From positions 1 through 31,711 of IMG/VR virus record IMGVR_UViG_3300015241_000027: 31,711 nucleotides of DNA, one strand, 5' to 3'. The notes under the pieces are model-generated. The model ran no database searches and was not told the DNA's origin. It saw only the letters and a list, made by a program, of their open reading frames with translations. Made by a program: the position numbers and the translations under genes. The stretch comes from a virus. Within the stretch, counting starts at the first letter, position 1, and each line of letters opens with the position of its first letter. This document shows positions 1 through 16,877 of this stretch, in pieces.

Positions 1-1464
1 CAACTGATCGAAGCGATCCAAATAGCTGAGCGGTTGCGTGAGATCGAGAAGACGAATGCGATTCGCAATTACTTTCCTGATTCCGGCCCTCTAAGACGCG
101 AGCTATATCCAAAACAGCTTGAGCACTTCCAAAGCGGTCTCACAAAGCGTGAGCGCCTATTTCTATGTGGGAACCGTGTCGGAAAGAGTTTGGCCGGTGC
201 ATATGAAGTAACATGCCATCTCACAGGACTTTACCCTAAATGGTGGACTGGACGTCGATTCAATAATCCGGTACGTGTTTGGGCTGCAGGAGATACGTCC
301 AAGACTGTCAGAGACATTGTTCAGCGCATATTGATGGGAGAGCCTGGCCAGTATGGAACGGGCATGATTCCAAAAGATAAGATCGTTCGCACGCTGGCGC
401 GCACTGGGCTTGGCGATGCTGTAGACGTGGTTCACATAAAGCATGTATCCGGCAATGTATCGCAGCTCACATTCAAGTCCTACGATCAGCGACGGGAAAG
501 CTTTCAGGGAACTGAGCAGGATGTGATATGGCTCGATGAAGAATCTCCGATGGATATCTATGTTGAATGCTTGCTTCGGACGATGACAAATGAAGGCATC
601 ATGATACTTACATTCACTCCTTTGCAAGGCCTTTCGAATGTTGTACTTAGCTTCCTTTCTGAAGGATCGATAGAGCATCCGATTGAGTCTAACTCTAAAG
701 GTGTGGTGACTGCAAGTTGGGATGATGTTCCCCATTTGTCCGAAGAAGCAAAAGAACAAATGTTGCTCTCCATGCCACCGTATCAACGCGATGCACGCTC
801 TAAGGGAATACCGCAGCTAGGTTCAGGTGCAATCTACCCGATACCTGAGTCAGAGATCGTAGTCGATGACTTTGTGCTACCGAAGTGGTGGCCTCGCGCT
901 TATGGCTTAGATGTTGGCTGGAACTTCACTGCTGCGGTGTTCGTGTGCAAAAACCCAGACACTGGAGTCATGTATGTCTACAACACTTATAAGGTCGGAG
1001 GAGAGCGAGCGTCGGTTCATGCTGCAAACATTCGCGGAGTTGACGGAAGAATACCCGGAGCCATCGACCCTGCGTCTCGAGGACGCGGACAGACAGACGG
1101 TCAGCAACTATTTCAGATGTACCGCGATCTGGGCCTGGATATCGCGCCTGCAGACAATGCCGTTGAGTCAGGCATTGAAGCCGTACGACAACTGCTGATC
1201 TCTGGACGGCTCAAGCTTATGAAGATTGCATCTGCCGCGATCTTGGCGGAGTACAGGACTTATAGACGCGATGAATCAGGGAAGGTGGTCAAAGAGAACG
1301 ATCACAACCTGGATGCGCTGCGCTATTGGGCAATGATGTTCACGGTCGGTGGTAAGGCTATGCGTCCAGCCGAGGAAGCGCCACTCTCGCGCGAGGAAGC
1401 AGCGATGTGGGGAGCAGCCGAACAAGGTAAGCAGAGGGGTCATCCTATGACTACAGCTCAATGA
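1..1464 (+). CDS. terL: Terminase large subunit, P22-like (5' end cut by window edge)
   Basis: ATPase-nuclease motor that packages DNA through the portal and cuts concatemers. The reading frame is open to base 1, so the true start probably lies upstream; the first start-like codon inside is TTG at 34. Counting from 34: Walker A GNRVGKS at 46-52, Walker B VIWLDEE at 164-170, coupling motif LTFTPLQG soon after, nuclease-type acidic residues D293 (YGLDVGW) and D427 (NHNLDALRYW). Motif wording and order follow the phage P22 gp2 family (for example GNQLGKS, FDEE, ILTFTPL, QDFGWNH). No small terminase subunit is visible; it would lie to the left. The stop overlaps the next start by four bases (ATGA). 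Family certain; the P22-like placement is from remembered motifs. Confidence 0.95.
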   Translation, partial: QLIEAIQIAERLREIEKTNAIRNYFPDSGPLRRELYPKQLEHFQSGLTKRERLFLCGNRVGKSLAGAYEVTCHLTGLYPKWWTGRRFNNPVRVWAAGDTSKTVRDIVQRILMGEPGQYGTGMIPKDKIVRTLARTGLGDAVDVVHIKHVSGNVSQLTFKSYDQRRESFQGTEQDVIWLDEESPMDIYVECLLRTMTNEGIMILTFTPLQGLSNVVLSFLSEGSIEHPIESNSKGVVTASWDDVPHLSEEAKEQMLLSMPPYQRDARSKGIPQLGSGAIYPIPESEIVVDDFVLPKWWPRAYGLDVGWNFTAAVFVCKNPDTGVMYVYNTYKVGGERASVHAANIRGVDGRIPGAIDPASRGRGQTDGQQLFQMYRDLGLDIAPADNAVESGIEAVRQLLISGRLKLMKIASAAILAEYRTYRRDESGKVVKENDHNLDALRYWAMMFTVGGKAMRPAEEAPLSREEAAMWGAAEQGKQRGHPMTTAQ

Positions 1465-1880
1465 GAGTGTGCCAGCGGTGCAGGAAGGAAGATTACCGCA
1501 TGATCCAGCGCAACGAAAGCTGCTCGTGCGGTGCCGGCCAATGGGTTGGCGATGATGAGCACAAGGAAGACTGCTATATGGTTGGCCACCAGGTATTTAC
1601 CTGGCCTTATCCCGAGCCAATTCATCCCCGTGAGCTGATCAAGGACGAGAACTCGCAGCAGTTTGGCTATCGCATGCCGGCTAAGTGGAAGGATTGGGGA
1701 TTGGTGCAGCGCGGTGCTCGCTTCCTCCGAACGAAGATGCTATGCCGTAGCTGCGTGCTTGAGGAGATGGCCGTTGCTGGTCGTGTCGCTGCTCTTCAGA
1801 AGGCGAAGAAGTCCTATGGCAACCGAGGCGCAACACAGGATTCATGGTCGCAACAGATCTGCTCGCAGGACTCATTCTAG
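1461..1880 (+). CDS. Cys-rich, probably zinc-binding small protein
   Basis: 139 aa, not recognised. It starts in a four-base overlap with terL, so it is probably translationally coupled. Cysteine pairs CQRC near the N-terminus, CSCG near residue 22 and CRSC near residue 96, with extra His and Cys between, suggest one or two structural zinc sites. The C-terminus is polar and looks unstructured. Position directly after terL suggests a late gene, perhaps a packaging or head accessory factor, but nothing in the sequence proves it. Confidence 0.7.
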   Translation: MRVCQRCRKEDYRMIQRNESCSCGAGQWVGDDEHKEDCYMVGHQVFTWPYPEPIHPRELIKDENSQQFGYRMPAKWKDWGLVQRGARFLRTKMLCRSCVLEEMAVAGRVAALQKAKKSYGNRGATQDSWSQQICSQDSF

Positions 1881-1925
1881 AATTGTCTATCACTTACCGG
1901 TCAGACGTTGTAATCTGTAGGTGAT

Positions 1926-2285
1926 ATGAGCCTATCCTTCTATTCCGTTGCAGTCCCGGTTACGCGGTCGAAGCTGACCACGTTGATTGCCGCGCAGTTG
2001 CCTACCGTGTCGATGGGAAATGTAACGACACCAGCAGGTTACACGCCACGCGGCAGGCAGATCACGATTCAGTCCAATCCTGGAAACACAGCAGCAGCCT
2101 TCATCTATATTGGCAACTTCCAGATGGTACCGGCCACTCCGATCGGCGTCGGTGCTGCTCTCGCGCCGGGCGCATCGTGGAACTATGGCAATGGTTCAGG
2201 GATTGCCGACGCACTCAGTGACATCTATGTGCAGGCATCCGGCGGTGCGGGCGCTGACACTATCTATGTTTCGGTGACTGACTGA
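1926..2285 (+). CDS. Small beta-rich virion-type protein
   Basis: 119 aa, rich in Ser, Thr, Ala and Gly with alternating hydrophobic residues, the look of a beta-sandwich decoration or fibre-base protein. It starts at ATG after a GGTGAT ribosome site. It has no signal peptide, unlike the fibre genes further on. Its stop overlaps the next start (TGATG). Structural role is inferred from composition and position only. Confidence 0.7.
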   Translation: MSLSFYSVAVPVTRSKLTTLIAAQLPTVSMGNVTTPAGYTPRGRQITIQSNPGNTAAAFIYIGNFQMVPATPIGVGAALAPGASWNYGNGSGIADALSDIYVQASGGAGADTIYVSVTD

Positions 2286-2560
2286 TGTCCGCGCCTGTTC
2301 CAGTATGTTTGCAGACAGGCGAGAAGACATCTTTTGGTGCTCTATTCAAGGGCGAGGCCGAGCGTTCGGCTTTCCATGCGAAGGTGGAGCAGGACATCAA
2401 AGACATTGAATCTGAGGGATTTGTTCGTGACGAGCAAGTCCCTAATATGTTTGCGAAAGACAACGTAGCAATCACATTGGAGGGATGGCGTCATGCGGGA
2501 AAAGATAAGACGTTGGCTTGGCATAGCGCCGTCGTTGCCAGTCTCAAGCCCCGAGGATAA
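2285..2560 (+). CDS. Hypothetical small protein
   Basis: 91 aa, unrecognised. It contains a charged, probably helical stretch (residues about 24-45) and an ITLEGW segment. The start overlaps the previous stop by one base, implying coupled translation. The last 68 bases are also coding in another frame for the following gene, whose own ribosome site lies inside this one. Confidence 0.6.
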   Translation: MSAPVPVCLQTGEKTSFGALFKGEAERSAFHAKVEQDIKDIESEGFVRDEQVPNMFAKDNVAITLEGWRHAGKDKTLAWHSAVVASLKPRG

Positions 2561-2810
2561 GGTCTTTGCTCTGCTGAAGGATACGATCGCAGAGAATCGT
2601 AAGACCACAAAGCTATTGGCAGAAGCGCTCGAGCGTGAGCAGAACACTCTGGATCGCATCGTCGGCGCTCGCTATGATCGTCAACCACGCATGGATTCTC
2701 CCACAAAACAAAATCAACCGGGCTTATTCGATCAGGAAGCTCGTTCAGGTAACCCTGATTCCTATGATGACGCCCCATTCGTTCAATCAATCGGAGAAAA
2801 CATCCAATGA
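2493..2810 (+). CDS. Hypothetical helical protein overlapping its neighbour
   Basis: 105 aa, not recognised. ATG at 2493 is preceded by a strong GGAGGG at an 8-base spacing, so the 68-base overlap with the upstream gene looks genuine. The protein begins MREKIRRWLG, then has a long charged helix (about 20-60) and a polar, Asp/Gln-rich tail. The stop overlaps the next ATG (ATGA), coupling it to the SGNH fibre gene. Confidence 0.65.
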   Translation: MREKIRRWLGIAPSLPVSSPEDKVFALLKDTIAENRKTTKLLAEALEREQNTLDRIVGARYDRQPRMDSPTKQNQPGLFDQEARSGNPDSYDDAPFVQSIGENIQ

Positions 2811-5008
2811 TTCGTAAACTACTGATTCTATTTGCACTATCTTCTCCAGTTCTAGCACAAACGACGACGTGGACGGGAATCATCAAAGATGTGCAGGGCA
2901 ATGTGGTGACCAGCGGTAAGGTCAACTTCACACTCACGCAGTCTGTAGATGCGACTATTCCCGGGCAATCGCGCTTCGTCCCTAGTCTTGTGAGCTGCAC
3001 AATCAATGGCGATGGGACTATGGGAATCGGCACGGGCGCTTGCGTTACGACCATGAACACAGCGATCTCCCCAACGGGAACAAGCTATAAAGTCTGCATC
3101 CAACCATACTTTGCGCAGCCTGGCTCATGCTTCTTTGGCTATGCGGTGACGGCGACGCAGGACATCAGTACGCAAGTGCCAACCCCGTCGACTGGCCCAT
3201 TCAACTACAACCCACTTGCGCAAGGGTTACCAGGTGCTACCGGACCAACCGGACCGCAGGGGCCGCCCGGGACGCCGACTAGCGGACTCAACCTTACGCC
3301 GAGTGCAACGCAGACAGTTGTTCCCACGAATGGGGCAGCTACCAATATCGGTAGATTGCAGATGACAAGCAACTTCTCCTATGCCGGCAGCATCGTCTAT
3401 CGTGCATGGGGCGACTCCATGACCTTTGGATTCGGCATCCCTACGCCGGCGACGCAGGCATATCCGGTTCTGGTTGCAGGCAACAATGGTTGGCCGACAT
3501 TTGAGAATCACGGTGTCAGCGGCGATATGTGTCCTGATGCAGCTACGCGTCTGATCAATACCTATACCGTGGCACCGGGACAGATAAACTCGCTGATGAT
3601 CGGGTTCAATGACAACTACTTCTTCGGAGCATCGCTCGATTACCGGCTTGATTATTACCGGCATTGCCAGGAAGCGCTCATAGCGTGGATGGGTACATTG
3701 CCGGAGCGCAAGATCCTATCCTCCAGCGCGGCAGTGACGTATACCGGTAGTTGGACACCCAACATTCCCTCGCAATATGGCGGGTTGCTCTATCAGACGA
3801 CATCGGTCGGCGGAACTGCAACCTTTACGACCCAGCCAGCGACCACTGTAGACGTGGTTACGCTGCACCAGAATACGAACACATCCGATTACACGATCAC
3901 GATCGATGGAGTTCCGCAGTTCGAGCCGCGCTCAGGAACGATCTATTTCAGCACGTCCATCGACATCACCACGAACAACGGGATTTCGTTCGCTCCTTAT
4001 CTTCACCATTTCTCTGGGCTTCCGAACACTCCCCATACGGTGGTGCTTACCTCAGCGCACATCGTTGGAACCAATCCTAACTACTTCCTCTGGGCTCAAA
4101 GCACCTCGCCTGGGCAGAATGGCACGAATGCTCCCACGGTTTATCTGGGAACTGTACCGCGTAGCACGGCGGCAGCCTATGCAGCCTCGCCGGTGCACAT
4201 AACTCCCACGGATGTCAGCAGCTTCAACAATGCGCAGTATCTGAATATGCAGGAGATGGGCGCATCTGGCGTCAATGTGACTATGGTTGACATCTCGAAC
4301 ACGGCTTGCTTCGACCCGAATGTGTCGGCGAACGTCCAAAGCGATGGAATCCATCCTACAGCACTTGGCTATACCTTCATCGCGGCTTGCTGGGAGAAGG
4401 AGATGTCGAATACGGTGGTCTCGCGTAACTGGCAACCCTATTACAGCTCTGAACGAAGCTATAAAGGCGGGCTCTATGCTGGGGATCCACCATTCGATGC
4501 AACCGGCAATCCGCTACAGCGTGGCCAGCTCGGATCGTCGACCTTCAACACGACAGGATCGATCAACACTGGCCGCCTGAGCATGGGATCGGATGGCTTC
4601 GGTACATTCCAGCGGCTCCCGAACGACTCAACTACTCTCGGAACGGTATGGGCGCTCCTCAATCCAGCATCAGGCTTCGACGGCATCGCATTTGGGCAGT
4701 ATGCGACTGGTTTCCCTTACCTATTCATGGACACGAGCGTAGCAGGCGTGCAGACATACAACTTCGGTCTGTTCGGGAAGTCGCGCACTGGAATCCATGC
4801 GAAACAGGCAGTCTTTGACACCAGCGTTGTCGCTGCATCGGTTGTGGGTACTGCGGGCATCGGACCGGCGGCTACTGTACTATGGACTTCTGGCTCTGGA
4901 GCGCCGTCAGGAGCTTGCGTCAATGGTTCGATGTATACGTCGACCACAGGTACAACAGTCAACATTCTCTGGGCTTGCGGCAGCACGGCTTGGCAGTTAG
5001 TCAAATAG
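2807..5008 (+). CDS. Exported-looking tail fibre with collagen-like segment and SGNH esterase domain
   Basis: 733 aa. Residues 1-17 are a textbook Sec signal peptide (MIRKL, hydrophobic core, cleavage after VLA before Q18), which is unusual for a virion fibre. A beta-domain follows, then a short Gly-Pro-rich collagen-like segment (about 142-158), then an SGNH/GDSL hydrolase: block I GDS with S204, GxND block with N268, and DGIHP with D513 and H516. All catalytic blocks are present, so an active esterase or deacetylase on surface polysaccharide is likely. A lectin-like insertion lies between blocks III and V. The C-terminus (about 690-733) is a small domain ending CGSTAWQLVK, resembling a segment of the gene at 5968. 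First of four tandem signal-peptide genes. Confidence 0.88.
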   Translation: MIRKLLILFALSSPVLAQTTTWTGIIKDVQGNVVTSGKVNFTLTQSVDATIPGQSRFVPSLVSCTINGDGTMGIGTGACVTTMNTAISPTGTSYKVCIQPYFAQPGSCFFGYAVTATQDISTQVPTPSTGPFNYNPLAQGLPGATGPTGPQGPPGTPTSGLNLTPSATQTVVPTNGAATNIGRLQMTSNFSYAGSIVYRAWGDSMTFGFGIPTPATQAYPVLVAGNNGWPTFENHGVSGDMCPDAATRLINTYTVAPGQINSLMIGFNDNYFFGASLDYRLDYYRHCQEALIAWMGTLPERKILSSSAAVTYTGSWTPNIPSQYGGLLYQTTSVGGTATFTTQPATTVDVVTLHQNTNTSDYTITIDGVPQFEPRSGTIYFSTSIDITTNNGISFAPYLHHFSGLPNTPHTVVLTSAHIVGTNPNYFLWAQSTSPGQNGTNAPTVYLGTVPRSTAAAYAASPVHITPTDVSSFNNAQYLNMQEMGASGVNVTMVDISNTACFDPNVSANVQSDGIHPTALGYTFIAACWEKEMSNTVVSRNWQPYYSSERSYKGGLYAGDPPFDATGNPLQRGQLGSSTFNTTGSINTGRLSMGSDGFGTFQRLPNDSTTLGTVWALLNPASGFDGIAFGQYATGFPYLFMDTSVAGVQTYNFGLFGKSRTGIHAKQAVFDTSVVAASVVGTAGIGPAATVLWTSGSGAPSGACVNGSMYTSTTGTTVNILWACGSTAWQLVK

Positions 5009-5015
5009 GTGGGCC

Positions 5016-5954
5016 ATGAAATACTTTGCTTCTCTCCTCGTTCTGATGTCGAGTTCGCTGATTGCCCAGATATCGCCCCCATACCCGAGTGGTGGGGGCG
5101 GTGGAGGAGTTACGACCTTCAATGCCAGAACTGGAGATGTGCTTCCAGCGACGAATGACTACAGTTTCGCCCAACTTAGTGGGCAGGTTTCCGTGTCTCA
5201 GCAACCGGCAACAACGGTGCAAGCGGTTGGCACGCGAACTGCGAATACTATTCTCAAGTGGGTGACCAGTAATACGGCTGCTAATTCGTCATTGGTTGAT
5301 GACGGGTCTTCTATAACGACTGGAGAAAATATAACAGCCCCCAATTTTATAGGAACGCTGAATGGTAACTCTGCATCTTCTTCTTTCGCAACGAACATAT
5401 TGGGCGGAGCGCTTGGATCTATCCCATATCAAAGCGCAGCGAATACCACACTCTTCGTCGCCGGACAGACGGTTGCGGGAACCTATCTACTGTGCGAACA
5501 GCCAACCGGCTCTTTGATAGCGCCGATCCTATGCAACTTAGCGACATTGATGGCCTCACCTGGTCCGATAGGATCAACCACGCGCTCAACTGTCCAGGCT
5601 ACGACAGTCAATGCCACTTCGACGAATGTAGGATCGAACATTATGGCAGGTGAGGGGGTCGTAACTTTCTCGGCCACTCCCGCATTTACTTCAGGAACGA
5701 CCCAATCGCAGATCATGACCCTAACGGCTAATGTAACTTCCTTTACTATGGCGGCTGGAGTTGCTGGGCGAGGATTCACGCTTACACTTTGTCAGAATGC
5801 AACTGGAGGTTTTACGGCAGTAGGGGCCCCAGCCAATCTTAGAGGCTTCGGAACTATAGGAACCACGCCAAGTACATGCTCCTCGCAGCATTTTGTCTAT
5901 AGTGGGAACCAGACAGCATGGCTTGCCGATTCAGCGATGGTCATAAATATGTAG
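5016..5954 (+). CDS. Signal-peptide-bearing fibre/adhesin-like protein
   Basis: 312 aa. N-terminal signal peptide (MKYFASLLVLMSSSLIAQ, predicted cut after Ala17), then ISPPY and a glycine run. FNARTGDVLPATNDYSFAQL is the short fibre motif (FNGRTG...GDY) widespread in tail fibres. The middle is Ser/Thr/Asn-rich beta structure. The last 100 residues (TLTANVTSFTM...W) look like a fibre tip domain. It starts 7 bases after the SGNH gene. The QISPPY motif after the cleavage site is shared with the gene at 6509, suggesting duplication. Virion or surface role inferred. Confidence 0.82.
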   Translation: MKYFASLLVLMSSSLIAQISPPYPSGGGGGGVTTFNARTGDVLPATNDYSFAQLSGQVSVSQQPATTVQAVGTRTANTILKWVTSNTAANSSLVDDGSSITTGENITAPNFIGTLNGNSASSSFATNILGGALGSIPYQSAANTTLFVAGQTVAGTYLLCEQPTGSLIAPILCNLATLMASPGPIGSTTRSTVQATTVNATSTNVGSNIMAGEGVVTFSATPAFTSGTTQSQIMTLTANVTSFTMAAGVAGRGFTLTLCQNATGGFTAVGAPANLRGFGTIGTTPSTCSSQHFVYSGNQTAWLADSAMVINM

Positions 5955-5967
5955 CACGAGGTATCAC

Positions 5968-6498
5968 ATGAAACGCTTTGGAGTTGCACTCGCTTTGGTC
6001 ATCGCTTCTCTAGTTCTTTGCTTCTCCTTACGCAATCATGGAGTCTCGGCACAGACAATTTCTCCGATCGGTTCACCGGCACCGGCGCTACACGGCAATG
6101 GCCCACCGCCTGCTGCAGTCAATCAGATCTGCAATTCATCGCTGATAAATGTTCTCTATTATCAGAATGATGGTGGCCTAGGGATGAAGTTTTGGTTCTG
6201 CGATGGTACGGCTTGGACGCAGAACAATGGAGCGATCACTCTATCTGGAACATCTGCCGTGATTACATGGGGGCTCATTGGAGCTGGGGCTTGCTCACAG
6301 CAGACGATAGCTATATCAGGAGCTACGGTTGGTCAGGCAGCTTACGCGGCAGCTATAGGTGACGCTGGTGATGGCAATGCAAGGATTCGTGCATGGGTTT
6401 CTGCGGCCAATACGGTCACGCTCCGAGCTTGCAACTATGGGCTCACATCTTTAGGCTTGAACGCGGTAGCATGGAAAGTGATTATTCCTTCGGTCTAA
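5968..6498 (+). CDS. Signal-peptide-bearing fibre-like protein
   Basis: 176 aa. The signal sequence covers residues 1-29 (hydrophobic core VALALVIASLVLCFSL, predicted cut after VSA before QTIS). A proline-rich linker follows, then a short domain with CNSS...FWFCDGTAW that resembles the C-terminus of the SGNH fibre, then a beta-rich C-terminal domain. It lies 13 bases after the previous gene and 10 bases before the next start, as part of the same operon. No enzymatic motif is visible. Confidence 0.78.
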   Translation: MKRFGVALALVIASLVLCFSLRNHGVSAQTISPIGSPAPALHGNGPPPAAVNQICNSSLINVLYYQNDGGLGMKFWFCDGTAWTQNNGAITLSGTSAVITWGLIGAGACSQQTIAISGATVGQAAYAAAIGDAGDGNARIRAWVSAANTVTLRACNYGLTSLGLNAVAWKVIIPSV

Positions 6499-6508
6499 GG
6501 TGATTACA

Positions 6509-6982
6509 ATGAAGCAGTACATTTTCGTTGGGCTAGGCATCATCGCGATCGTCATCCTTATGGCGGCAGGCGGACAGATATCTCCTCCTTATAACGGAGG
6601 AAGCGGAGGTGCTGTTGCATCCGTGTTCGGGCGTACCGGAGTGATCACTGCAGTTGTCGGTGACTATTCTGCCTTCTTCCCGATCAGCGTTTATTGCGGC
6701 CTTACGACCACATGCGCAAATACTGCATCCTCCGGCGCTAAGGTCGTGCGCGGCGCAGCTCCGGCCCTTCCAGGGAGTGGAGCGAATCAGGTAACAATAA
6801 CACTTTCGGCGGCATCCGCCTTCTCCGACACAACTTATGAATGCGCCCTAACCTCACATGCGAATGCTCCTATCGCATCAACAATATTCACTCTCAACAA
6901 GCAAAACGGGACGCAATTCATCATTGCTGGATTCCCAATAACGTCAACTGACATTGTGGGTTACGTTTGCACCGGAAACTAA
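6509..6982 (+). CDS. Signal-peptide-bearing fibre-like protein, paralogous to the gene at 5016
   Basis: 157 aa from ATG at 6509, chosen because AAGGTGA sits 5 bases upstream; a GTG at 6500 would overlap that site. Hydrophobic N-terminus (YIFVGLGIIAIVILMAAGG), then QISPPY, a Gly/Ser linker and VFGRTGVITAVVGDYSAF, the same RTG...GDY fibre motif as the gene at 5016. C-terminal beta domain with cysteines (SGANQVTITLSAASAF...VCTGN). The signal may be a cleavable peptide or an anchor, since the expected Ala-x-Ala is not clear here. Confidence 0.75.
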   Translation: MKQYIFVGLGIIAIVILMAAGGQISPPYNGGSGGAVASVFGRTGVITAVVGDYSAFFPISVYCGLTTTCANTASSGAKVVRGAAPALPGSGANQVTITLSAASAFSDTTYECALTSHANAPIASTIFTLNKQNGTQFIIAGFPITSTDIVGYVCTGN

Positions 6983-7018
6983 TGTCCGATTCGAGACATC
7001 TAACGTTTACAATGAACC

Positions 7019-7363
7019 TTGTGTACGTGGAGTCAATTTGTTTCAATAGGGGCCATTGCCTTGGCATATTCAGAGAGTCCAAACGTCGCGCTCTTACTCT
7101 CACGCATTACTGAAGTCGAAAATAAGCATTCTAGCCTAAAGAATGCCTTCGAAAATCACGAGAAGTGGTCTTCAGAGAGAATCAAGAAACACGACAAAGA
7201 CCTCTATGAGGGTAACGGTTTGCCATCTATAACGAATCGCTTGTCATCGGTGGAGATGATCGCGGGAATGGCCAAGTTTGTGGCCGCAACAGCATGTGTT
7301 AATACGATTATGCTGGTCGTCTTCCTTATCAACTATTACGTAGGGCATGGCGGGGGAAAGTAG
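7019..7363 (+). CDS. Coiled-coil protein with C-terminal membrane helix
   Basis: About 114 aa if TTG at 7019 is the start; an in-frame stop at 7013 limits it and no ATG or GTG exists near, so the start is uncertain (a second TTG is at 7061). Residues about 25-85 are charged and helical, followed by a membrane segment FVAATACVNTIMLVVFLINYYV and a short basic tail. The layout resembles small haemolysin XhlA/holin-accessory-type phage proteins, but sits far from the lysis genes. Function unknown. Confidence 0.5.
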   Translation: MCTWSQFVSIGAIALAYSESPNVALLLSRITEVENKHSSLKNAFENHEKWSSERIKKHDKDLYEGNGLPSITNRLSSVEMIAGMAKFVAATACVNTIMLVVFLINYYVGHGGGK

Positions 7364-7377
7364 AACTCCCCCGCGCT

Positions 7378-7494
7378 CTAGCCTCCGTGGCCAGGACGTG
7401 GTGTTGGTTCGCCTGCATCGTCGGGTGCTGCTGCGGCTGGCTTTACTGCGGTCGGCTTCTTAGGAAGCTTCGGATCTTTCTTGTCACTGCACAT
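7378..7494 (-). CDS. Small Lys/Pro/Ala-rich protein
   Basis: 38 aa on the leftward strand, starting MCSDKKDPKLPKK and ending PRPGHGG. The ATG at 7494 overlaps the end of the upstream leftward membrane gene by 11 bases, and AAGGA lies about 8 bases before it, so coupled translation is plausible. The composition is low-complexity and probably disordered. Unrecognised. Confidence 0.45.
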   Translation of the reverse strand: MCSDKKDPKLPKKPTAVKPAAAAPDDAGEPTPRPGHGG

Positions 7495-7930
7495 ATTGTT
7501 GGTCCTTTCTAGGGGCAAAGAATAAAAATGCCGCTACCCAAACTATAAAGCATGCGAGGTTCAGAGAGTTCAATGCATCATGACCAGCGAGCAGAACTGG
7601 GAGACCAAACACCTTCGATATGTAGATTGCAACCTTTAGAATGTTATAGATAAGCATCGGAACCCAGACGAACCAAACATCTAGTCTTTGGCATTCGACG
7701 ATGGCCGCCAGATTCAGGAGGATATTGAGAACGCCGATGGTGAAGACTGCTTTGAGATATTGCGGAGAGCCCACTCCGAAGCGTGACAGCATCGCCATAA
7801 AGAAGACTGACTCGACTAGATCGCACATGATCACTAGAGGAAACCAGAGTAAGCGCCAATGCCGCATAAACAAAAGTGCAAGGATAATGACGTGCAGCGC
7901 GGTTACAATGATCCACAGAAGGTTGTCCAT
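7484..7930 (-). CDS. Polytopic inner-membrane protein
   Basis: 148 aa with about five hydrophobic segments (roughly 4-22, 28-50, 60-80, 85-108 and 122-140) joined by short charged loops. It ends with a cytoplasmic-looking PRKDQQYVQ tail. It lies opposite to the surrounding late genes. Its start codon is only 11 bases from the start of the rightward gene at 7942, and no clear ribosome site precedes it. A host-modifying function such as superinfection exclusion or membrane protection would fit a stray membrane gene, but there is no family evidence. Confidence 0.65.
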   Translation of the reverse strand: MDNLLWIIVTALHVIILALLFMRHWRLLWFPLVIMCDLVESVFFMAMLSRFGVGSPQYLKAVFTIGVLNILLNLAAIVECQRLDVWFVWVPMLIYNILKVAIYISKVFGLPVLLAGHDALNSLNLACFIVWVAAFLFFAPRKDQQYVQ

Positions 7931-7941
7931 AAGGAGATTCT

Positions 7942-8115
7942 ATGCCAGCGCAGTCAGTAGCTCAGAGAAAATTGATGGCGATCGCTGAACATAAGCCGTC
8001 TGAAGTCTATGCCAAGGATTCAGGCGTTCTCGGCATGAAGAAGTCTTCGCTCCATGATTTCGCCGCAACTAAAGAGAAGAATCTCCCCTCCAAAGTCTAC
8101 GCCTCGAAGAAATAG
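7942..8115 (+). CDS. Small conserved-type phage protein (57 aa)
   Basis: A short gene with a strong AAGGAG 5 bases before ATG. The protein (MPAQSVAQRKLMAIAEHKPS..., then VLGMKKSSLHDFA, ending YASKK) resembles a family of small basic phage proteins with the pattern MAIAEH...LxDFA that I recall from many phages; their role is unknown. It precedes the portal gene and probably begins or belongs to the head operon. Confidence 0.7.
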   Translation: MPAQSVAQRKLMAIAEHKPSEVYAKDSGVLGMKKSSLHDFAATKEKNLPSKVYASKK

Positions 8116-8167
8116 AGCTATCTCTAAGTAATTGCATACTGTATTCTTACGGTGAGGTGTGCTCGGC

Positions 8168-10552
8168 ATGGCAGAGGCTGTTGACAAACAGGATGCAGCA
8201 GGAAACAAGTCGCCAGAGCAGACACCCGCACAAAAAGCTCTCTGTGAGTTTGTCCAGGACCGGTACAGATATCTCTCGCAGGATCGCTTGGCCGAAGACG
8301 ACATGTGGTTCCGTTCCGGCCTATTCAACCAAGGATATCAATGGCTTACGCGTGATCGTAGCTCGAAGATCATTCGGCCAATGGACGCCAACGCGGCTCC
8401 TATGTGGACAATGCCGCAGTCGGACTATTTCTCGAAGACAATCGCGGTCAATGCGAACGCTCTCGGAGCCAAGCTACCGCGCGTAACAGCTCTCTCCGGC
8501 AACTATGACTCTCGCTCGCGCAATGCAGCGGAGTATGCGGAGTCGGCCATCGATGCAGCCAATGTCGAATCGGGTATGACACTGCTCAATCCTGTTCTGG
8601 CGGCTCGCGTAGCTCTCTGGGGCATCGGCGTGTCCAAGGAAACGATAGCTTTCGACCGATCTACAGAAGACATCCCGATTCTTGGTGAGCAGACGCCTAT
8701 GGGTGAGGCTGATGTACCTGCCCCGCCACCACAGCTTACCGGAAGCAATCCGGCAGCTCCTACGCAGGATACAGTGAACCAGCAGACCGGTCAGCCAATC
8801 CAGGACAGGACAGGCGACCCAGATGTTATTGGTACCGAACGCATACCTTCTGCCCGACTGCTTACCACTCTGCCTTTGCCGTTCTCGATCTATATCCCTC
8901 GTGACTGTGGAGACGCCAACATTGCGAAAGAAGTCTATGAACGCTGCGCTGCATACCGCCTTTCAGAAGCCCGGGAACTCTGGCCTGACTATGCGGCAGT
9001 CCTTACAGCAGATTCCTCAAGTTCTGAGGCAGATGCAAGCAACTCGAACTCCCTTGCGGCATACTACGAAGTCCAGTTGCGTCGGCTCCAACGTATCAAT
9101 TACACGGGAACGGGTGATCTTACCGGTGAGCACAAAGACACGATCACGACTATCGAAGGATGGGTAAACTGGGGTTGCCTTCCGAAGAAGGTGCAGGATA
9201 AGATCGCCGAAGAGTGGGCAGATCAGCCTTCTGAGGTCGAAGAATACGCCAAGCGCGGCATGACCAAGATCGCCGCCGCTGTCGCCTATGGAATCTTTGT
9301 GGTAACATGGCAAAACTTCACTCTGCAGTGGGGCGAGAATCCAAACAATGGGAAAGCGGTCTATACCTTCTTCATGTGGGAGAAGGATGTTGCTAACCCA
9401 TATGGTAAAGGTGGTCTTGGCCGCGTCCTGATGTCTCTACAGCGCGAATTGAACCGCTTGGATGCTCTGATCAACCGGGCCTTGTTATCGAATGCCACAA
9501 CGAAGGTGATGATGCCGGAAAGCCAGCAATACAAGAGTGAATGGTCTGGTGATCCCATCGATGTGATTCAATATGACGATTCGATTGGCAAGCATATGCC
9601 GTCAGTTATCCAAGCGAGGGCGTTTGACCCTGCTTTGGTTCAGCGCCGTCAGCAGATTGTTACAGAGTTCAATGTGCTTGGCTATGCTGAGGGTGTTTCG
9701 CAAGGGAACGCGCCTGGAGGAGTTGATTCTTTTAGAGGAATTGCTTATCTGGGAGCAAAAGCGGAGGAGTCACGTGGAACACAACGCGCACTCTGGGAGC
9801 AGGCACATGAGACGCGCTCGAAAATCCTCCTGATCATGGCCAAGCGGGTGTGGAATGAGCCCCGCAAGATCAAGATTGCCGGTCCGAACGGTCGTTATGG
9901 TGCGGAATTGATCGAAGGAGCCGATTTGGACTTCGATTCCGACCAGATGACCATTGTTCAGGGCTCGTCACGGCCCAAGACGCTCGAGGAGAAGCTCCAA
10001 GCGTTCGAAACGCTCGCGCAGGGGGGCTTGATCGATGTCATGGACCCTCAGATTCGTCAGTTTGCCTATGAAACTATCGGTATGCCGGAGTTGAACCTTA
10101 CTTCCAGCCTCCAGTATTCGAAGGCAGAACGCGATCTACAGCAGGTGCTCGATGGGATGCAGCCGGTCAGCTCTCCGGCGCAGGATTGGTCGATTGTGGT
10201 GCGGATATTCTCTGACTATACCCTCACTGAGGAGTATGAGAGCCTTCCGCAGCAGACACAGGGTGGAATCCTCGGGTACATGGCGTGGGCGCAGCAGCTT
10301 ATGCATGAAGCACAGGCTCCAGTGGCTATGCCGGGCGTACCGAATGCTGGTGGCCCTCCGGGTACTCCGGGTTCATCTCAGCAAGCTGGCGCAGCGCTGG
10401 CCGCAGCCGGTGCGAATCCAAAGGGATCACCGGGGCAGGTTCTCAGCAAGACTCCTGGCAAAACAGCATCACTCGGCAACACTCAGCAGGCCGCAGTCTC
10501 TGAAGGAAACGGCGTCGCAAATAATGTCGACAAGGCCGCACCGATCGGATGA
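8168..10552 (+). CDS. Portal protein, P22-type size class
   Basis: 794 aa. Start chosen at ATG 8168, which has GAGGTG about 9 bases upstream; a GTG at 8159 abuts that site. The N-terminal pattern (acidic helix, FNQGYQWL, then NANALGAKLPRVTAL) is typical of portals. The long helical middle and a Gln/Pro/Gly-rich C-terminal tail (from about 680) fit a large podovirus portal such as P22 (725 aa). It forms the dodecameric ring that docks terminase and tail. Family call rests on size, context and N-terminal pattern. Its stop overlaps the next start (ATGA). Confidence 0.82.
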   Translation: MAEAVDKQDAAGNKSPEQTPAQKALCEFVQDRYRYLSQDRLAEDDMWFRSGLFNQGYQWLTRDRSSKIIRPMDANAAPMWTMPQSDYFSKTIAVNANALGAKLPRVTALSGNYDSRSRNAAEYAESAIDAANVESGMTLLNPVLAARVALWGIGVSKETIAFDRSTEDIPILGEQTPMGEADVPAPPPQLTGSNPAAPTQDTVNQQTGQPIQDRTGDPDVIGTERIPSARLLTTLPLPFSIYIPRDCGDANIAKEVYERCAAYRLSEARELWPDYAAVLTADSSSSEADASNSNSLAAYYEVQLRRLQRINYTGTGDLTGEHKDTITTIEGWVNWGCLPKKVQDKIAEEWADQPSEVEEYAKRGMTKIAAAVAYGIFVVTWQNFTLQWGENPNNGKAVYTFFMWEKDVANPYGKGGLGRVLMSLQRELNRLDALINRALLSNATTKVMMPESQQYKSEWSGDPIDVIQYDDSIGKHMPSVIQARAFDPALVQRRQQIVTEFNVLGYAEGVSQGNAPGGVDSFRGIAYLGAKAEESRGTQRALWEQAHETRSKILLIMAKRVWNEPRKIKIAGPNGRYGAELIEGADLDFDSDQMTIVQGSSRPKTLEEKLQAFETLAQGGLIDVMDPQIRQFAYETIGMPELNLTSSLQYSKAERDLQQVLDGMQPVSSPAQDWSIVVRIFSDYTLTEEYESLPQQTQGGILGYMAWAQQLMHEAQAPVAMPGVPNAGGPPGTPGSSQQAGAALAAAGANPKGSPGQVLSKTPGKTASLGNTQQAAVSEGNGVANNVDKAAPIG

Positions 10553-11055
10553 TTTCTGGCATCATAGACCTCATGAGTTTCTTCCATCGCCACCATCACA
10601 TAGATCCTGTCGAGGAACTGCTCGAAGATGTCGTAATTCTGTTGAAACAAATCCGCGATAGCCTACGTCCACAGAAGGCAGTTGCCTTCATCATCAGACA
10701 AATAGGAGAATCTCCCATGCCAGTTCAAGGACCAGTAACCGGAATCGTAGTCGGTCAAACAGGAACATTTTTAGCTATTCCCGTGGATGCTAATGGGAAC
10801 GAAGTACCAGTTCCTGCAGGAACCGCCAATCCAACATGGACATCGGATACATCAAATGCTACGGTAACATCATCCCCAGATGGTCTTACCGCATCAGTAG
10901 TGGCAGCTTCAGACCCAACTCTTGCTGGGACATCATTCAATCTCACGATTTCTGCTACCGTAAATGGATCCGTGGTATCTAATACAATTCCAGTTCCGTT
11001 TCTTTCTGCTTCGACCGGTGCATTTGTTGGATTTGTTATCACGCAGACTAGCTAA
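10549..11055 (+). CDS. Ig-like (Big2-type) head decoration candidate with a possible internal start
   Basis: 168 aa. Residues 1-56 are a separate His-rich and helical piece (FFHRHHH, VEELLEDVVILLKQI). From residue 57 the sequence is a single Ig-like beta domain (WTSDTSNATVTSSPDG... is typical of Big2 domains). The ATG at 10717, in the same frame, carries its own AGGAG 8 bases upstream. Two products, a long 168-aa form and a short 112-aa Ig-domain form, are therefore plausible. Placement after the portal suggests a capsid surface or accessory protein. A terminator follows. Confidence 0.72.
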   Translation: MISGIIDLMSFFHRHHHIDPVEELLEDVVILLKQIRDSLRPQKAVAFIIRQIGESPMPVQGPVTGIVVGQTGTFLAIPVDANGNEVPVPAGTANPTWTSDTSNATVTSSPDGLTASVVAASDPTLAGTSFNLTISATVNGSVVSNTIPVPFLSASTGAFVGFVITQTS

Positions 11056-11071
11056 TCATTTCTTATAGATC

Positions 11072-11100
11072 AAGCCTCCTTTGCGGGAGGCTTTTTCTTT
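11072..11100 (+). terminator. Rho-independent terminator after the Ig-like gene
   Basis: Stem AAGCCTCC pairing with GGGAGGCTT across a short TTTGC loop, followed by TTTTTCTTT. It closes the portal-decoration transcript. Confidence 0.9.
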
Positions 11101-11115
11101 GCCTGCTGATATAGT

Positions 11116-11145
11116 TTGACTAGCGGTTGTTCGATAACCGATAAA
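11116..11145 (+). promoter_or_regulatory. Candidate sigma70-type promoter
   Basis: TTGACT at 11116 and GATAAA at 11140 with an 18-base spacer, directly after the terminator and 25 bases before the ATG at 11171. The -35 is good, the -10 is weak. It would restart transcription for the small virion, scaffold and capsid genes. Confidence 0.5.
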
Positions 11146-11170
11146 GTCCGGTCTAAAAGGAGAAATACAA

Positions 11171-11509
11171 ATGGCTCTAGCAACTTATACATTCAGCAGA
11201 AAAACGGTTCCCGGGGGCCAGTATTTCTCCCAGGTTGACATCACCGGAGAAACATCTTATACAACGGGTGGGCCATCTATCGATGTAACTAAGCTTGGAC
11301 TTCCCGCAAATCAGCTCAAGATGGTTGTTGAATGCCGTCCTACGCTGGCTGCTTCTACGGTATGGACTCCTGTCTTGATTGAGACATATTCCGGTGGAGT
11401 TATTACCAATCTGAAGTTCATGCTTACCGTCGCGGCTACCGGAACGGAAGTTACCGCTGCCACTAATGTTTCCGGTGGTATCTGGCGCTTCATTTTCTCA
11501 GGAAACTAG
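11171..11509 (+). CDS. Small beta-rich structural protein
   Basis: 112 aa, with AAAGGAG 8 bases before the start. Alternating hydrophobic and Thr/Ser residues suggest a beta-sandwich; no cysteine pairs beyond one Cys, no signal peptide. It lies between the decoration candidate and scaffold. A capsid decoration or stabilising protein is the best guess. Unrecognised by family. Confidence 0.7.
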   Translation: MALATYTFSRKTVPGGQYFSQVDITGETSYTTGGPSIDVTKLGLPANQLKMVVECRPTLAASTVWTPVLIETYSGGVITNLKFMLTVAATGTEVTAATNVSGGIWRFIFSGN

Positions 11510-11517
11510 GAGGATCG

Positions 11518-11841
11518 ATGAAAGTTCGCGCTAAAGTAACCGAAATCAATGCCATTTGTCATCCCGGGCCGTCGCCTCTGACGGTTATGGGTGCAAAGGG
11601 ACAGCAGGAAGCCAAGAAAGGCGATTACATCTTCATGCATGGCACCGATCCATCTACCTTCGAAGTGGTAAAGAAGGCTGACTTCGATGACAAATATGAA
11701 GTGGTCGCTGAAGTACCGGTTGCACATCCAGCTCCAGTAGAACCCCTGCCACCAGTAATCGAATCGGATCTAGGTGGAACTGACCCAGAACCTCCAATGC
11801 CTCATTCCGATGAAGAAAAGGTTGAAGAACCAACTGCATAG
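11518..11841 (+). CDS. Small protein with Pro/Glu-rich tail
   Basis: 107 aa. The first 70 residues form a compact, probably beta-rich domain (MKVRAKVTEINAI...GDYIFMH). The rest is a Pro, Glu and Val-rich disordered tail. AGGAGG precedes the start by 4 bases. Located immediately before the scaffold leader hairpin, so it may be a head accessory protein; function unknown. Confidence 0.68.
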   Translation: MKVRAKVTEINAICHPGPSPLTVMGAKGQQEAKKGDYIFMHGTDPSTFEVVKKADFDDKYEVVAEVPVAHPAPVEPLPPVIESDLGGTDPEPPMPHSDEEKVEEPTA

Positions 11842-11847
11842 TCTGGT

Positions 11848-11916
11848 AAACTCCTCTTATACCGAAGCCTTCTGATTTGCGGAGCACCGCACGGTAGGCG
11901 CGAGTAAGAGGAGTTT
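11848..11916 (+). promoter_or_regulatory. Long RNA hairpin covering the scaffold ribosome site
   Basis: AAACTCCTCTTA (11848-11859) is perfectly complementary to TAAGAGGAGTTT (11905-11916). Inside lie ACCG/CGGT and a GCGG-AGCA-CCGC hairpin (11879-11890). The 3' arm contains the AGAGGAG Shine-Dalgarno of the gene starting at 11920, so folding would hide it. This looks like a translational control element. Confidence 0.75.
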
Positions 11917-11919
11917 TCA

Positions 11920-12924
11920 ATGGCCGATGAAATCGTAACTGATGCTGGTTCCACCGCAGACCTCTCCGCTCCTGAAACCGCAACATCTCCCGCAGAAACC
12001 TCCGCAACAGATACTCTTCCATTCGAGAAGCCAGCCGGGGAGGCCGACCCCGCTACGGAATCTGCTGAAGTCGATGAATACGGCGAACTGGAGAAGCTCT
12101 TCGCGGAAGAAGAGAAGGCTGCAGATCCGAATGCTCCGGTTGTGCCGCCGGTCGACGCCGGTCAGGTACCAGAGGCATTCAAGGAAGCTCTCGGCATCTC
12201 GGATTGGGTGAAGGAGCCCGCCGACGTCGCGCAGGCTGTCCGCGCCGCCGATGAGATCTGGAAAGTGAGCGCCGGTGATGCGCATGTGGCGACATTGTTC
12301 GAGGGATTACGCGGAAGCAATCCGGAGAGATTCAACTCTATCATTCCAGAGGCGATAAGCTACATAGAGCAGATTACCGGTAAGAAGTTTGGGGGCGAAG
12401 GCGCTCCAGAAGTACAGGTTGATCCGGCTCTCAAGGCTCTCCAGGACGAAGTCAAGCAGATGCGCACGGTCGAGCAGCAGCGGACTGAACAGGCTCAGCA
12501 AGCTTATGTGAACGAGCAGAATCAGAAGATTAGCCAGTCGCTGCAGTCGAAGGTGTCCGAAGTCGCGAAGGGAACGTTTCTGGAGCAGGATGCGAATCTC
12601 TTCCAGAACGTCTTACAGCGTCTTGACGCGATGAAGGTCTCCCCGGCTAAGATCGCTGCGGATGTGGCGAAGGGCGACTTTACCGATATCGAGAAGGCGT
12701 ATAAGGCATATGCGCGTGAGACTCTGGCTCAGGTAAAAGCCCACTCCGCTAATGTAAAGAGCCACTATCAGCGCTTGCGCAATACGGCGCCGGCGGCAGC
12801 GGGTAGCCAGGCTGGAAGCGGTAAATCAAACAATGGAATGCCGAACCGTGCTGATTTTCCTGAAGGACCGGATGGGACACGAGCATGGACCGGAGCCATG
12901 TTTGATGCTCATCAATCTAAGTAA
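11920..12924 (+). CDS. Capsid scaffolding protein
   Basis: 334 aa. The first 80 residues are acidic, Ala/Thr/Glu-rich and disordered. The central part is helical, with a Gln/Glu-rich coiled-coil (about 165-215) and further helices. The C-terminus (AYARETLAQVKAHSANVKSHYQRL) is basic, as expected for the coat-binding helix-turn-helix of scaffolds. Place immediately before the capsid gene and the composition support the call. P22 scaffold (303 aa) is known to regulate its own synthesis; here the RBS is inside a hairpin. An in-frame protease domain is not visible. Confidence 0.78.
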   Translation: MADEIVTDAGSTADLSAPETATSPAETSATDTLPFEKPAGEADPATESAEVDEYGELEKLFAEEEKAADPNAPVVPPVDAGQVPEAFKEALGISDWVKEPADVAQAVRAADEIWKVSAGDAHVATLFEGLRGSNPERFNSIIPEAISYIEQITGKKFGGEGAPEVQVDPALKALQDEVKQMRTVEQQRTEQAQQAYVNEQNQKISQSLQSKVSEVAKGTFLEQDANLFQNVLQRLDAMKVSPAKIAADVAKGDFTDIEKAYKAYARETLAQVKAHSANVKSHYQRLRNTAPAAAGSQAGSGKSNNGMPNRADFPEGPDGTRAWTGAMFDAHQSK

Positions 12925-13444
12925 GACGAATGAATTCTCCATGCTGGAGATATGCCGCCAGGATATATGCCTGAGCGGCATCTTCTTTTATACTGAAAAA
13001 TCCAAGATGGATTCTCTTATTATGGCTGGTGCAACACGCATGCCATTTTCTAGCTTGTTTGTTCCAATAAACCCCTTTATATCCACTCTTGTTGCTCTTC
13101 TGAAGCCTTCTATTCCAAGATTGCTACGCATGTGTGGCAAGTCTTAGATTGCATCGTCGATTGTCCAGAGAGTTACCATTACGGTGATCTACGGTATTCC
13201 CGTCTGATGGTTTGAGAAGTAGCTGGTGGAGATTTTTGTTTCTATGGTCATCGTTTATTCTCATGCGCCTACGTGCATAGAAATTGTCGTCGGTTCTACT
13301 TTTACATGCACTCCAGTTCCATTGAGACAGGAACGTAGCATCTTCCCAATCGCAAAGTACCCATAAACCTTTTGTCAATGGAATGTAAGAGATAGATGGG
13401 CCTATTGGATAAATTGGCTGACGAGTTGTAATCTTGTATTGCAT
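12917..13444 (-). pseudogene. HNH homing endonuclease with AP2 domain, interrupted by an in-frame TAG
   Basis: Read leftward from ATG 13444 (GGAG 6 bases before it; an upstream ATG at 13456 lacks a ribosome site). The N-terminal part contains WNWSACKS...FYARRRMR and the HNH core VDHRNGNSLDNRRCNLRLATHA. A TAG at 13126-13124 then interrupts. The same frame continues for 68 codons with a clear AP2 DNA-binding domain (SGYKGVYWNKQARKWHA...KRIHLGFFSIKEDAAQAY) and stops at 12917, overlapping the scaffold 3' end by 8 bases. About 175 aa in total is the normal length of this family. Either a recent nonsense mutation or readthrough. Confidence 0.85.
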
Positions 13445-13456
13445 CGGTGTCTCCAT

Positions 13457-13669
13457 TTAGACTTTGTTCGAATTGAGTGTTAGAGCACTCTTCGTGACGA
13501 TGCTTCATTTTATCACTTGCAAACAATAACTTACAGATGTACCTTAGTTCTTGTAGAGTGTCTGCGAGACCTCCTATCGATCTACCGGTTAGCCGGTTAG
13601 TTCGAAGGCCAGGCGGGTAGAGATCTCAAAATCTCATATTTACTCGTAATGCCCTAGGAGGGTATCTAT
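13457..13669. other. Non-coding leader between the endonuclease and capsid genes
   Basis: About 210 bases with no convincing gene. It holds hairpins GAGTG-CACTC (13475-13490) and GAGAT-ATCTC (13620-13635), a direct repeat CCGGTTAG CCGGTTAG near 13585, TCTACC/GGTAGA (13581/13616), and CCTCCTA (13570-13576), which is complementary to the capsid Shine-Dalgarno TAGGAGG (13655-13661). A weak promoter-like pair TTGCAA/TACCTT (13517 and 13540, 17-base spacer) may drive the capsid gene. Confidence 0.5.
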
Positions 13670-14926
13670 ATCGCTGACGCTGGGACCATATCTAGAATTG
13701 GTGGAATCCTCAAAACGACATACGATGACGGCGTAAAGGAGCAGCAGAACCTTACCGCCGACTTTCGCAAACGTATCGGAAAGCCATCGGCTGATGCATG
13801 GAAAGCCCCCGGCGATCACTTTGAGTTCTCTGCACGCATTGGTGGCAACCGCGCTGGAATTACCCCGGCTGCTTCCACTGATCCCCTTCCCGCAGCGGCT
13901 GGTCAGCGCGAAGTAAAGTGCTCCGTATTCGAGCGCAATTACTACGGCCAGGTTCTTCTCTATGTGAAGGACATGCTCAACACTGATAAGGGTGCATTCC
14001 AGGCGTTCATCGATCAGAAAACCAATGAAATGAAGGGCATCACTCGCGACTTTCAGAAGGTTGCGAACATCGATATCTCTTCGGGCGATGGTTCTGGTGT
14101 TCTCAGCCTGATTGCAGCTATCTCTGCTACAACCACGCAGACACTTCAGATTGGAACTGCAAAGTTTCAGTATGGTTCCTTGAATCTCCAAGTTGGAGAT
14201 CTCATCGACATATTCGATTCAACGCTGACAACTTCCCGTACTGGCGGGACAGGAGCAACGATTGTATCGATCACTCCTACTGTCAATGGGACGACTTCCA
14301 CCATCGTCCTTTCAGTAGCTCCTTCAGCTACTGCAGTTGGCGATTTCGTAGTTCGTGGTGCCAACAAGGTGAACAAGTCCTATGTGGCTCCTCTCGGGAT
14401 GCTTCGCAATCAAGGCATTACCTTCCAAGGACAGTCAACGGCAACCAATCCTCTTCTGGCAGCCAATATCATCAATGCTGCCGGTCAGCCACTCACCGAA
14501 TCACTTCTCCGCAGCGCGATGGATACCGTTTATCGCTCTTCGGGGCTCGAAGTAGATGAGTTCTGGGTTGGCTTGGCGCAGTGGGCTGAATATGAGGCAT
14601 CTGGATTCGCTCAGAAGCGCTTCATGGCGATGGAACTCGATAAGGGTTTCTCCACTCTGACCTTCGACGATAAGAAGATCGTCAAGGGTGTCGATATCCC
14701 CTCGGCTGTCGTGATGGCTCTCAACCTCGACTCGATCAAATTCGGATCGATCACCCCTTGGGGCCCTTCTGACATGGATGGAAGCATCCTGAAGGCTCTT
14801 CCCGGATTCGCCGCCTACTACGCATACTTCGTGGAGTCGGGAAACTTCATCTACTACCAGGCGAATGCAAACTGCCTGATCGATGCTCTTTCCTATAACA
14901 CGCTGAATCCGGCGTACGCGAAATAA
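13670..14926 (+). CDS. Major capsid protein, apparent ATC start codon
   Basis: About 418 aa. Called from its size, its place after the scaffold, a strong terminator behind it, and a capsid-like sequence: N-terminal arm (DDGVKEQQNLTADFRKRIG), central domains, and the C-terminal ITPWGPSD...FAAYYAYFVESGNFIYYQ. AGGAGGG (13656-13662) sits 7 bases before ATC at 13670, giving I/M-ADAGTISRIGG. No ATG, GTG or TTG occurs in frame between the TAG at 13655 and GTG at 13964. Starting at 13964 would remove 98 residues, including conserved-looking capsid sequence. Exact capsid family is not resolved; an HK97-type fold is expected. Confidence 0.85.
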   Translation: MADAGTISRIGGILKTTYDDGVKEQQNLTADFRKRIGKPSADAWKAPGDHFEFSARIGGNRAGITPAASTDPLPAAAGQREVKCSVFERNYYGQVLLYVKDMLNTDKGAFQAFIDQKTNEMKGITRDFQKVANIDISSGDGSGVLSLIAAISATTTQTLQIGTAKFQYGSLNLQVGDLIDIFDSTLTTSRTGGTGATIVSITPTVNGTTSTIVLSVAPSATAVGDFVVRGANKVNKSYVAPLGMLRNQGITFQGQSTATNPLLAANIINAAGQPLTESLLRSAMDTVYRSSGLEVDEFWVGLAQWAEYEASGFAQKRFMAMELDKGFSTLTFDDKKIVKGVDIPSAVVMALNLDSIKFGSITPWGPSDMDGSILKALPGFAAYYAYFVESGNFIYYQANANCLIDALSYNTLNPAYAK

Positions 14927-14949: not shown

Positions 14950-14982
14950 AAGGGCCACCCGAATAAGGTGGCCCTTCTTTTT
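14950..14982 (+). terminator. Strong rho-independent terminator after the capsid gene
   Basis: AAGGGCCACC pairs with GGTGGCCCTT around a short CGAATAA loop, followed by CTTTTTT. One of the clearest sites in the window. Confidence 0.95.
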
Positions 14983-16161: not shown

Positions 16162-16877
16162 ATACCCCCTATATTTACGGAGAACTCGATAGGAAGAGCT
16201 ACTATTCGCAGTCTGATGCAGATATCTACAATGCTATCAACGCGGCAGGATGGACGCTCTATACTCGGATTCTCCGTGAACATAGAGGGTATTTTGTAAA
16301 GTTTGATGAGACAACGCTGACATTTACGCCGAATGTGCAGACTTATTCGCTTCCTCCCGACGTTGATCAGATTCTTCATCTTGCGGAGCGCGCCACGGCG
16401 ACCGAGCGATGGCACCCGATGGCGGCAACGACGCTACAGGACGTTATCGAACATGCGCAGGACAAGAGCGGCTTCTTCGGGAACTACTACAACGGCGGTC
16501 TTTATGGGGAGCAGTCTCGGTTCAGCTTCTATGGCCCCTTCCTTCCCGCTACCTCGATCAGCGTATCGCCCGGTGCACCGCAGATTCAGCAGATCATGGT
16601 GGAACCAGCCATCGATCAGACTCGTTTTGTCCAGATCGCTTATACCGTTGCCTGGGTACCGGTACGGGACGGTTCGACGAAGGTTTACTTGCCGGACGAT
16701 GCCGAGTCGGCCTTGATTGACTGGGGATGCATGGAGCTAATGCGGAACAATGACGATACTCTAGCGGATCGCTATGCTGCCTCTGCAGAGACCAAGACAC
16801 AGTGGCTGACATCGCTTATGCGCCAGCGTCAGTTCGCCTCTCCTCCACAGGTAAAGCTATTCGGTGGGTGGATCTAG
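16158..16877 (+). CDS. Head-to-tail adaptor (gp4-like candidate)
   Basis: 239 aa. DADIYNAINAAGWTLYTRIL at the N-terminus and TPNVQTYSLPPDVDQILHL, followed by beta-rich sequence and a C-terminal helix (ALIDWGCMELM...DRYAAS). This is the pattern of short-tailed-phage tail adaptors, where YxLPxD sits after a helical N-terminus. It would extend the portal and receive the nozzle protein encoded directly downstream. Role inferred from pattern and synteny. Confidence 0.68.
   Translation: MNTPYIYGELDRKSYYSQSDADIYNAINAAGWTLYTRILREHRGYFVKFDETTLTFTPNVQTYSLPPDVDQILHLAERATATERWHPMAATTLQDVIEHAQDKSGFFGNYYNGGLYGEQSRFSFYGPFLPATSISVSPGAPQIQQIMVEPAIDQTRFVQIAYTVAWVPVRDGSTKVYLPDDAESALIDWGCMELMRNNDDTLADRYAASAETKTQWLTSLMRQRQFASPPQVKLFGGWI

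Follow-up and report, generated by a model that had tools for sequence, protein, structure and literature searches.

The window analysed here, i.e., the whole 31,711 nt stretch of the IMG/VR virus record IMGVR_UViG_3300015241_000027 from an uncultivated phage, carries on the plus strand an open reading frame of 418 codons (nt 13670–14926, stop codon TAA) whose product matches the phrog_14242 "major head protein" family (residues 6–406 against 4–387 of 396, E = 1.2e-32), in agreement with the identity of major capsid protein proposed in a previous sequence-only reading of this DNA. The gene is located in the head gene block, which is colinear with that of the relatives, beside the portal gene and a gene considered scaffold-like by its position (nt 11920–12924, plus strand), whose colinear orthologs immediately precede the capsid gene. 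Just downstream of the window capsid gene, a strong hairpin resembling an intrinsic terminator, with a 10 bp stem and a T-rich tail, was detected (nt 14950–14976, plus strand). In another part of the window, a long ORF (nt 2807–5008) shows a GDSL lipase/acylhydrolase domain, with the first ~150 residues conserved in the relatives and the rest without a match there.

Between the scaffold-like and the capsid genes, an HNH endonuclease gene (nt 12917–13456, minus strand; PF13392, phrog_99) lies in antisense orientation and is absent at this place in the relatives. Since the gap upstream of the capsid gene measures 745 bp in the window versus about 108–263 bp in the relatives, the HNH-bearing insertion can be estimated at about 500–600 bp; its G+C content is about 42%, versus about 55% in the flanks. 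The HNH frame is interrupted by a single in-frame amber codon (nt 13124–13126) and, otherwise open, continues beyond it, aligning with the HNH protein of Tunturi_2; the frame extends as far as the end of the scaffold-like gene. This amber codon, about 550 bp from the capsid start, may reflect ordinary decay or may mark a poorly covered or poorly resolved stretch.

Re-reading of the sequence confirmed the arrangement described by the sequence-only reading at the 5' end of the capsid gene: a Shine-Dalgarno sequence AGGAGGG (nt 13656–13662) precedes ATC GCT GAC, starting at nt 13670, an in-frame TAG at nt 13655 closes the frame on the upstream side, and the next in-frame ATG, GTG or TTG downstream is the GTG at nt 13964. 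The N-terminus encoded in the window reads I-A-D-A-G-T-I-S-R. No other gene among the 34 listed for the window lacks an ATG, GTG or TTG candidate, and the RNA structure around the capsid start is unremarkable (z = -0.30). Either the capsid gene uses AUC, a very rare and normally weak start codon, or the contig contains a one-base error.

When the window capsid alone was used as direct query, phage, viral and genome collections yielded only a relative with 23% identity, and alignments had to be built stepwise. A colinear relative found via the portal gene (L013) enabled the alignment, and further orthologs were added by searches with growing alignments. After removal of near-copies, 14 distinct capsid orthologs, about 35–57% identical, were counted. 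The comparison of homologous capsid genes suggested by the sequence-only reading could thus be performed, and all 14 place the start at the ATC at nt 13670–13672. The codon aligned with it is ATG in 7 orthologs (L045/L014, L046/L032, L047/L018, L052, L053/L015, L054/L020 and L022), TTG in 4 (L055/L034, L056, L057 and L061/L013) and GTG in the remaining 3 (L048, L049 and L059). The motif A-D-x-x-T-[IL]-x-R follows the start in every one of them, and a clear Shine-Dalgarno is present just upstream in nearly all, the weakest being that of L055. Comparison of the first 17 codons with the closest ortholog, L014, revealed 4, 0 and 13 differences at codon positions 1, 2 and 3, respectively, indicating that this stretch is translated and constrained. 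Based on the ortholog starts and on the purifying selection at the N-terminus, the translation start of the capsid gene is placed at nt 13670, where the deposited sequence has ATC. Gene, start position and gene order are shared with the phrog_14242 head proteins and the capsid clade (L013, L014, L022, L048, L059 and others); the window differs in that these relatives start at ATG, GTG or TTG, and none at ATC.

A start of the protein elsewhere, i.e., at the GTG at nt 13964, at the ATG at nt 13649 by amber readthrough, or in an upstream exon removed together with an intron, would have in its favour that these two codons are the only canonical in-frame ones near the capsid start and that the HNH-bearing insertion lies upstream of the gene. 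However, we consider it very improbable, as the N-terminal residues of the capsid are conserved in all orthologs and the spacing between the Shine-Dalgarno and the homologous start is already the native one. Initiation at GTG 13964 would drop 98 residues conserved in the relatives. The ATG at nt 13649, followed by CCC TAG, opens a two-codon chance ORF (nt 13649–13657, plus strand) that is not conserved and, by inspection, has no Shine-Dalgarno; the readthrough offered as an alternative in the sequence-only reading is not upheld, the resulting extension having no counterpart in the relatives and TAG being a normal stop here. Indeed, recoding of TAG was rejected since TAG terminates about one third of the 34 listed genes and several of these ends match those of orthologs, including the genes ending at nt 16877, 21438 and 11509; for several such genes, the ortholog stop codon at the matching position is TAA, TGA or TAG. 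In the same test, no tRNA was found. As to the intron, neither an Rfam match to group I or group II families, at gathering or relaxed threshold, nor a split exon was obtained at the capsid 5' end, and the native spacing leaves no room for an intron between the Shine-Dalgarno and the start. The downstream near-cognate codons ATA 13688, ATT 13697 and ATC 13706 were also discarded, being too distant from the Shine-Dalgarno and preceded by the invariant A-D residues.

The start codon of the capsid gene is labile in this clade in general, with ATG, GTG and TTG all in use, and AUC is its extreme. Non-AUG starts (GTG or TTG), found in 7 of the 14 distinct orthologs, require at least 3–5 changes on the tree; in the same set, the gene two places downstream of the capsid starts with ATG in 12/12 clear cases, and other neighbouring genes are nearly always ATG-started. 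When the two genes were compared in matched genomes, non-ATG starts were counted in 5/12 for the capsid (window included) versus 0/12 for the gene two places downstream (Fisher's exact p~0.04), a contrast that is suggestive only, since the p value ignores kinship and the contrast drops without the window. Among the 34 listed genes, the computed pairing of the capsid Shine-Dalgarno with the anti-Shine-Dalgarno (-10.7 kcal/mol, AGGAGG with an 8 nt spacer) is the strongest, and among the 15 capsid orthologs it ranks second, the best being that of the GTG-started L059 (-11.0). Compensation between start codons and Shine-Dalgarno strength has been reported (PMC5622118), and the strong Shine-Dalgarno of the window fits with it, but the orthologs as a whole show a weak trend, L055 combining TTG with a value of -3.9.

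Whether the C at nt 13672 is real was then weighed on the sequence evidence. A real C is favoured by the labile capsid start codon of the clade and by the strong Shine-Dalgarno, in addition to the error rate of assembled contigs, which is expected to be low. Conserved genes of the contig showed no indel or nonsense error, and another contig, IMGVR_UViG_3300012925_000126, the only near-identical one, matches the window at 100% over 12,744 bp (nt 1–12744; L003, L012). This contig also adds 2.6 kb of genome upstream of the window start. On the other side, the prior for AUC is very low, since a study of 61,358 reconstructed AUG starts (PMC5622118) recorded a single replacement by AUU and makes no mention of one by AUC. 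In our judgement, genuine AUC initiation aided by the strong Shine-Dalgarno is the best reading, with slightly better than even chances, and is somewhat likelier than a consensus error.

Such an error, in which an ordinary start codon at nt 13670 would have had one base miscalled in a stretch with thin coverage or mixed strains, is nonetheless a serious contender, less probable than a real AUC start but well within reach. In its favour, and against a real AUC start, the third base of the start codon is G in 14/14 orthologs, and the HNH amber would be a second one-base anomaly about 550 bp away. Base 13672 also has no independent support: the identical contig stops at nt 12744, no independent assembly covers the position, and an exact DNA scan of the viral collection gave no match to the capsid start region. 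By contrast, start, stop and frame are otherwise free of anomaly in the conserved genes across 31.7 kb, HNH genes decay often, and non-AUG capsid starts are tolerated in the clade. The ATC might also be present in the sampled DNA of a lineage that makes too little capsid, or as a low-frequency allele. The nonsense codon that breaks the adjacent HNH gene and the long branch of the window capsid (0.73) would be compatible with such a defective or minor variant, which we regard as quite unlikely given that neither the capsid reading frame nor any conserved structural gene shows other damage.

If the AUC start is genuine, the full AGGAGG, 8 nt upstream, would place the 30S subunit at the capsid start, and fMet-tRNA would initiate at the AUC at nt 13670–13672 with the first two bases paired and the third position mismatched, giving the product (f)Met-Ala-Asp-Ala-Gly-Thr-Ile-Ser-Arg..., from which Met would probably be removed before Ala. 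While the start site, the open reading frame and the Shine-Dalgarno are results of the present analysis, this mechanism would further imply that the C at nt 13672 is truly in the phage population and that fMet is inserted. AUC would then slow capsid synthesis and make it sensitive to IF3, partly offset by the strong Shine-Dalgarno; IF3 disfavours weak third-position pairs (PMC10158994, in vitro; PMC5472188), which counts against a genuine AUC start. The features found at the locus, with ATC in place of ATG, GTG or TTG at the homologous start and a properly spaced Shine-Dalgarno, are those of a near-cognate start. The codon class is the same as in infC, the gene for IF3, a natural, IF3-sensitive start read by the initiator tRNA, with AUU in E. 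coli and AUC in Streptomyces, where the gene begins with ATC (PMC5472188). However, infC, conserved and autoregulated, belongs to the host, whereas here an abundant phage structural gene is concerned, with AUC in one phage of the clade only. Likewise, the IF3-repressed sigR of Streptomyces starts with GTC and thus has a non-G third position (PMC5472188) but, unlike this capsid gene, encodes a low-level regulatory protein and uses another codon. A partial literature search retrieved no relevant case of a phage capsid gene with an AUC/ATC start.

The E. coli context in which the sequence-only reading had judged the codon found no support, the relatives pointing weakly to Acidobacteria. Since the capsid relative L022 is encoded on a contig of an Acidobacteriaceae metagenome-assembled genome (MAG) and a Tunturiibacter phage provides the best match to the HNH gene, an acidobacterial host is tentatively considered possible. 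The infC gene of this MAG, like that of genomes of the same genus, has ATC or ATA GAY AAA downstream of a Shine-Dalgarno, so that such hosts probably initiate at AUC or AUA in at least one gene, a point in favour of a real AUC start in the capsid gene. In L035, L037, L039, L041, L042 and L044, all putatively acidobacterial, infC appears to be ATC/ATA-started after a Shine-Dalgarno, a likely trap for misannotation.

Should the AUC start be real, a phage protein both essential and very abundant would be translated from a codon rejected by common gene callers, and such capsid genes would be truncated, here by 98 residues, or missed in viral annotation. The locus would also provide a natural test of how IF3 discrimination is offset by a strong Shine-Dalgarno. 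A more far-reaching view, that weak start codons have been selected to set capsid output in the clade and that here AUC, paired with a strengthened Shine-Dalgarno, puts the most abundant virion protein under the control of IF3, is speculative and, in our opinion, unlikely. More generally, the labile start codon of the capsid gene suggests that the dose of capsid is tuned at the level of translation in this clade.
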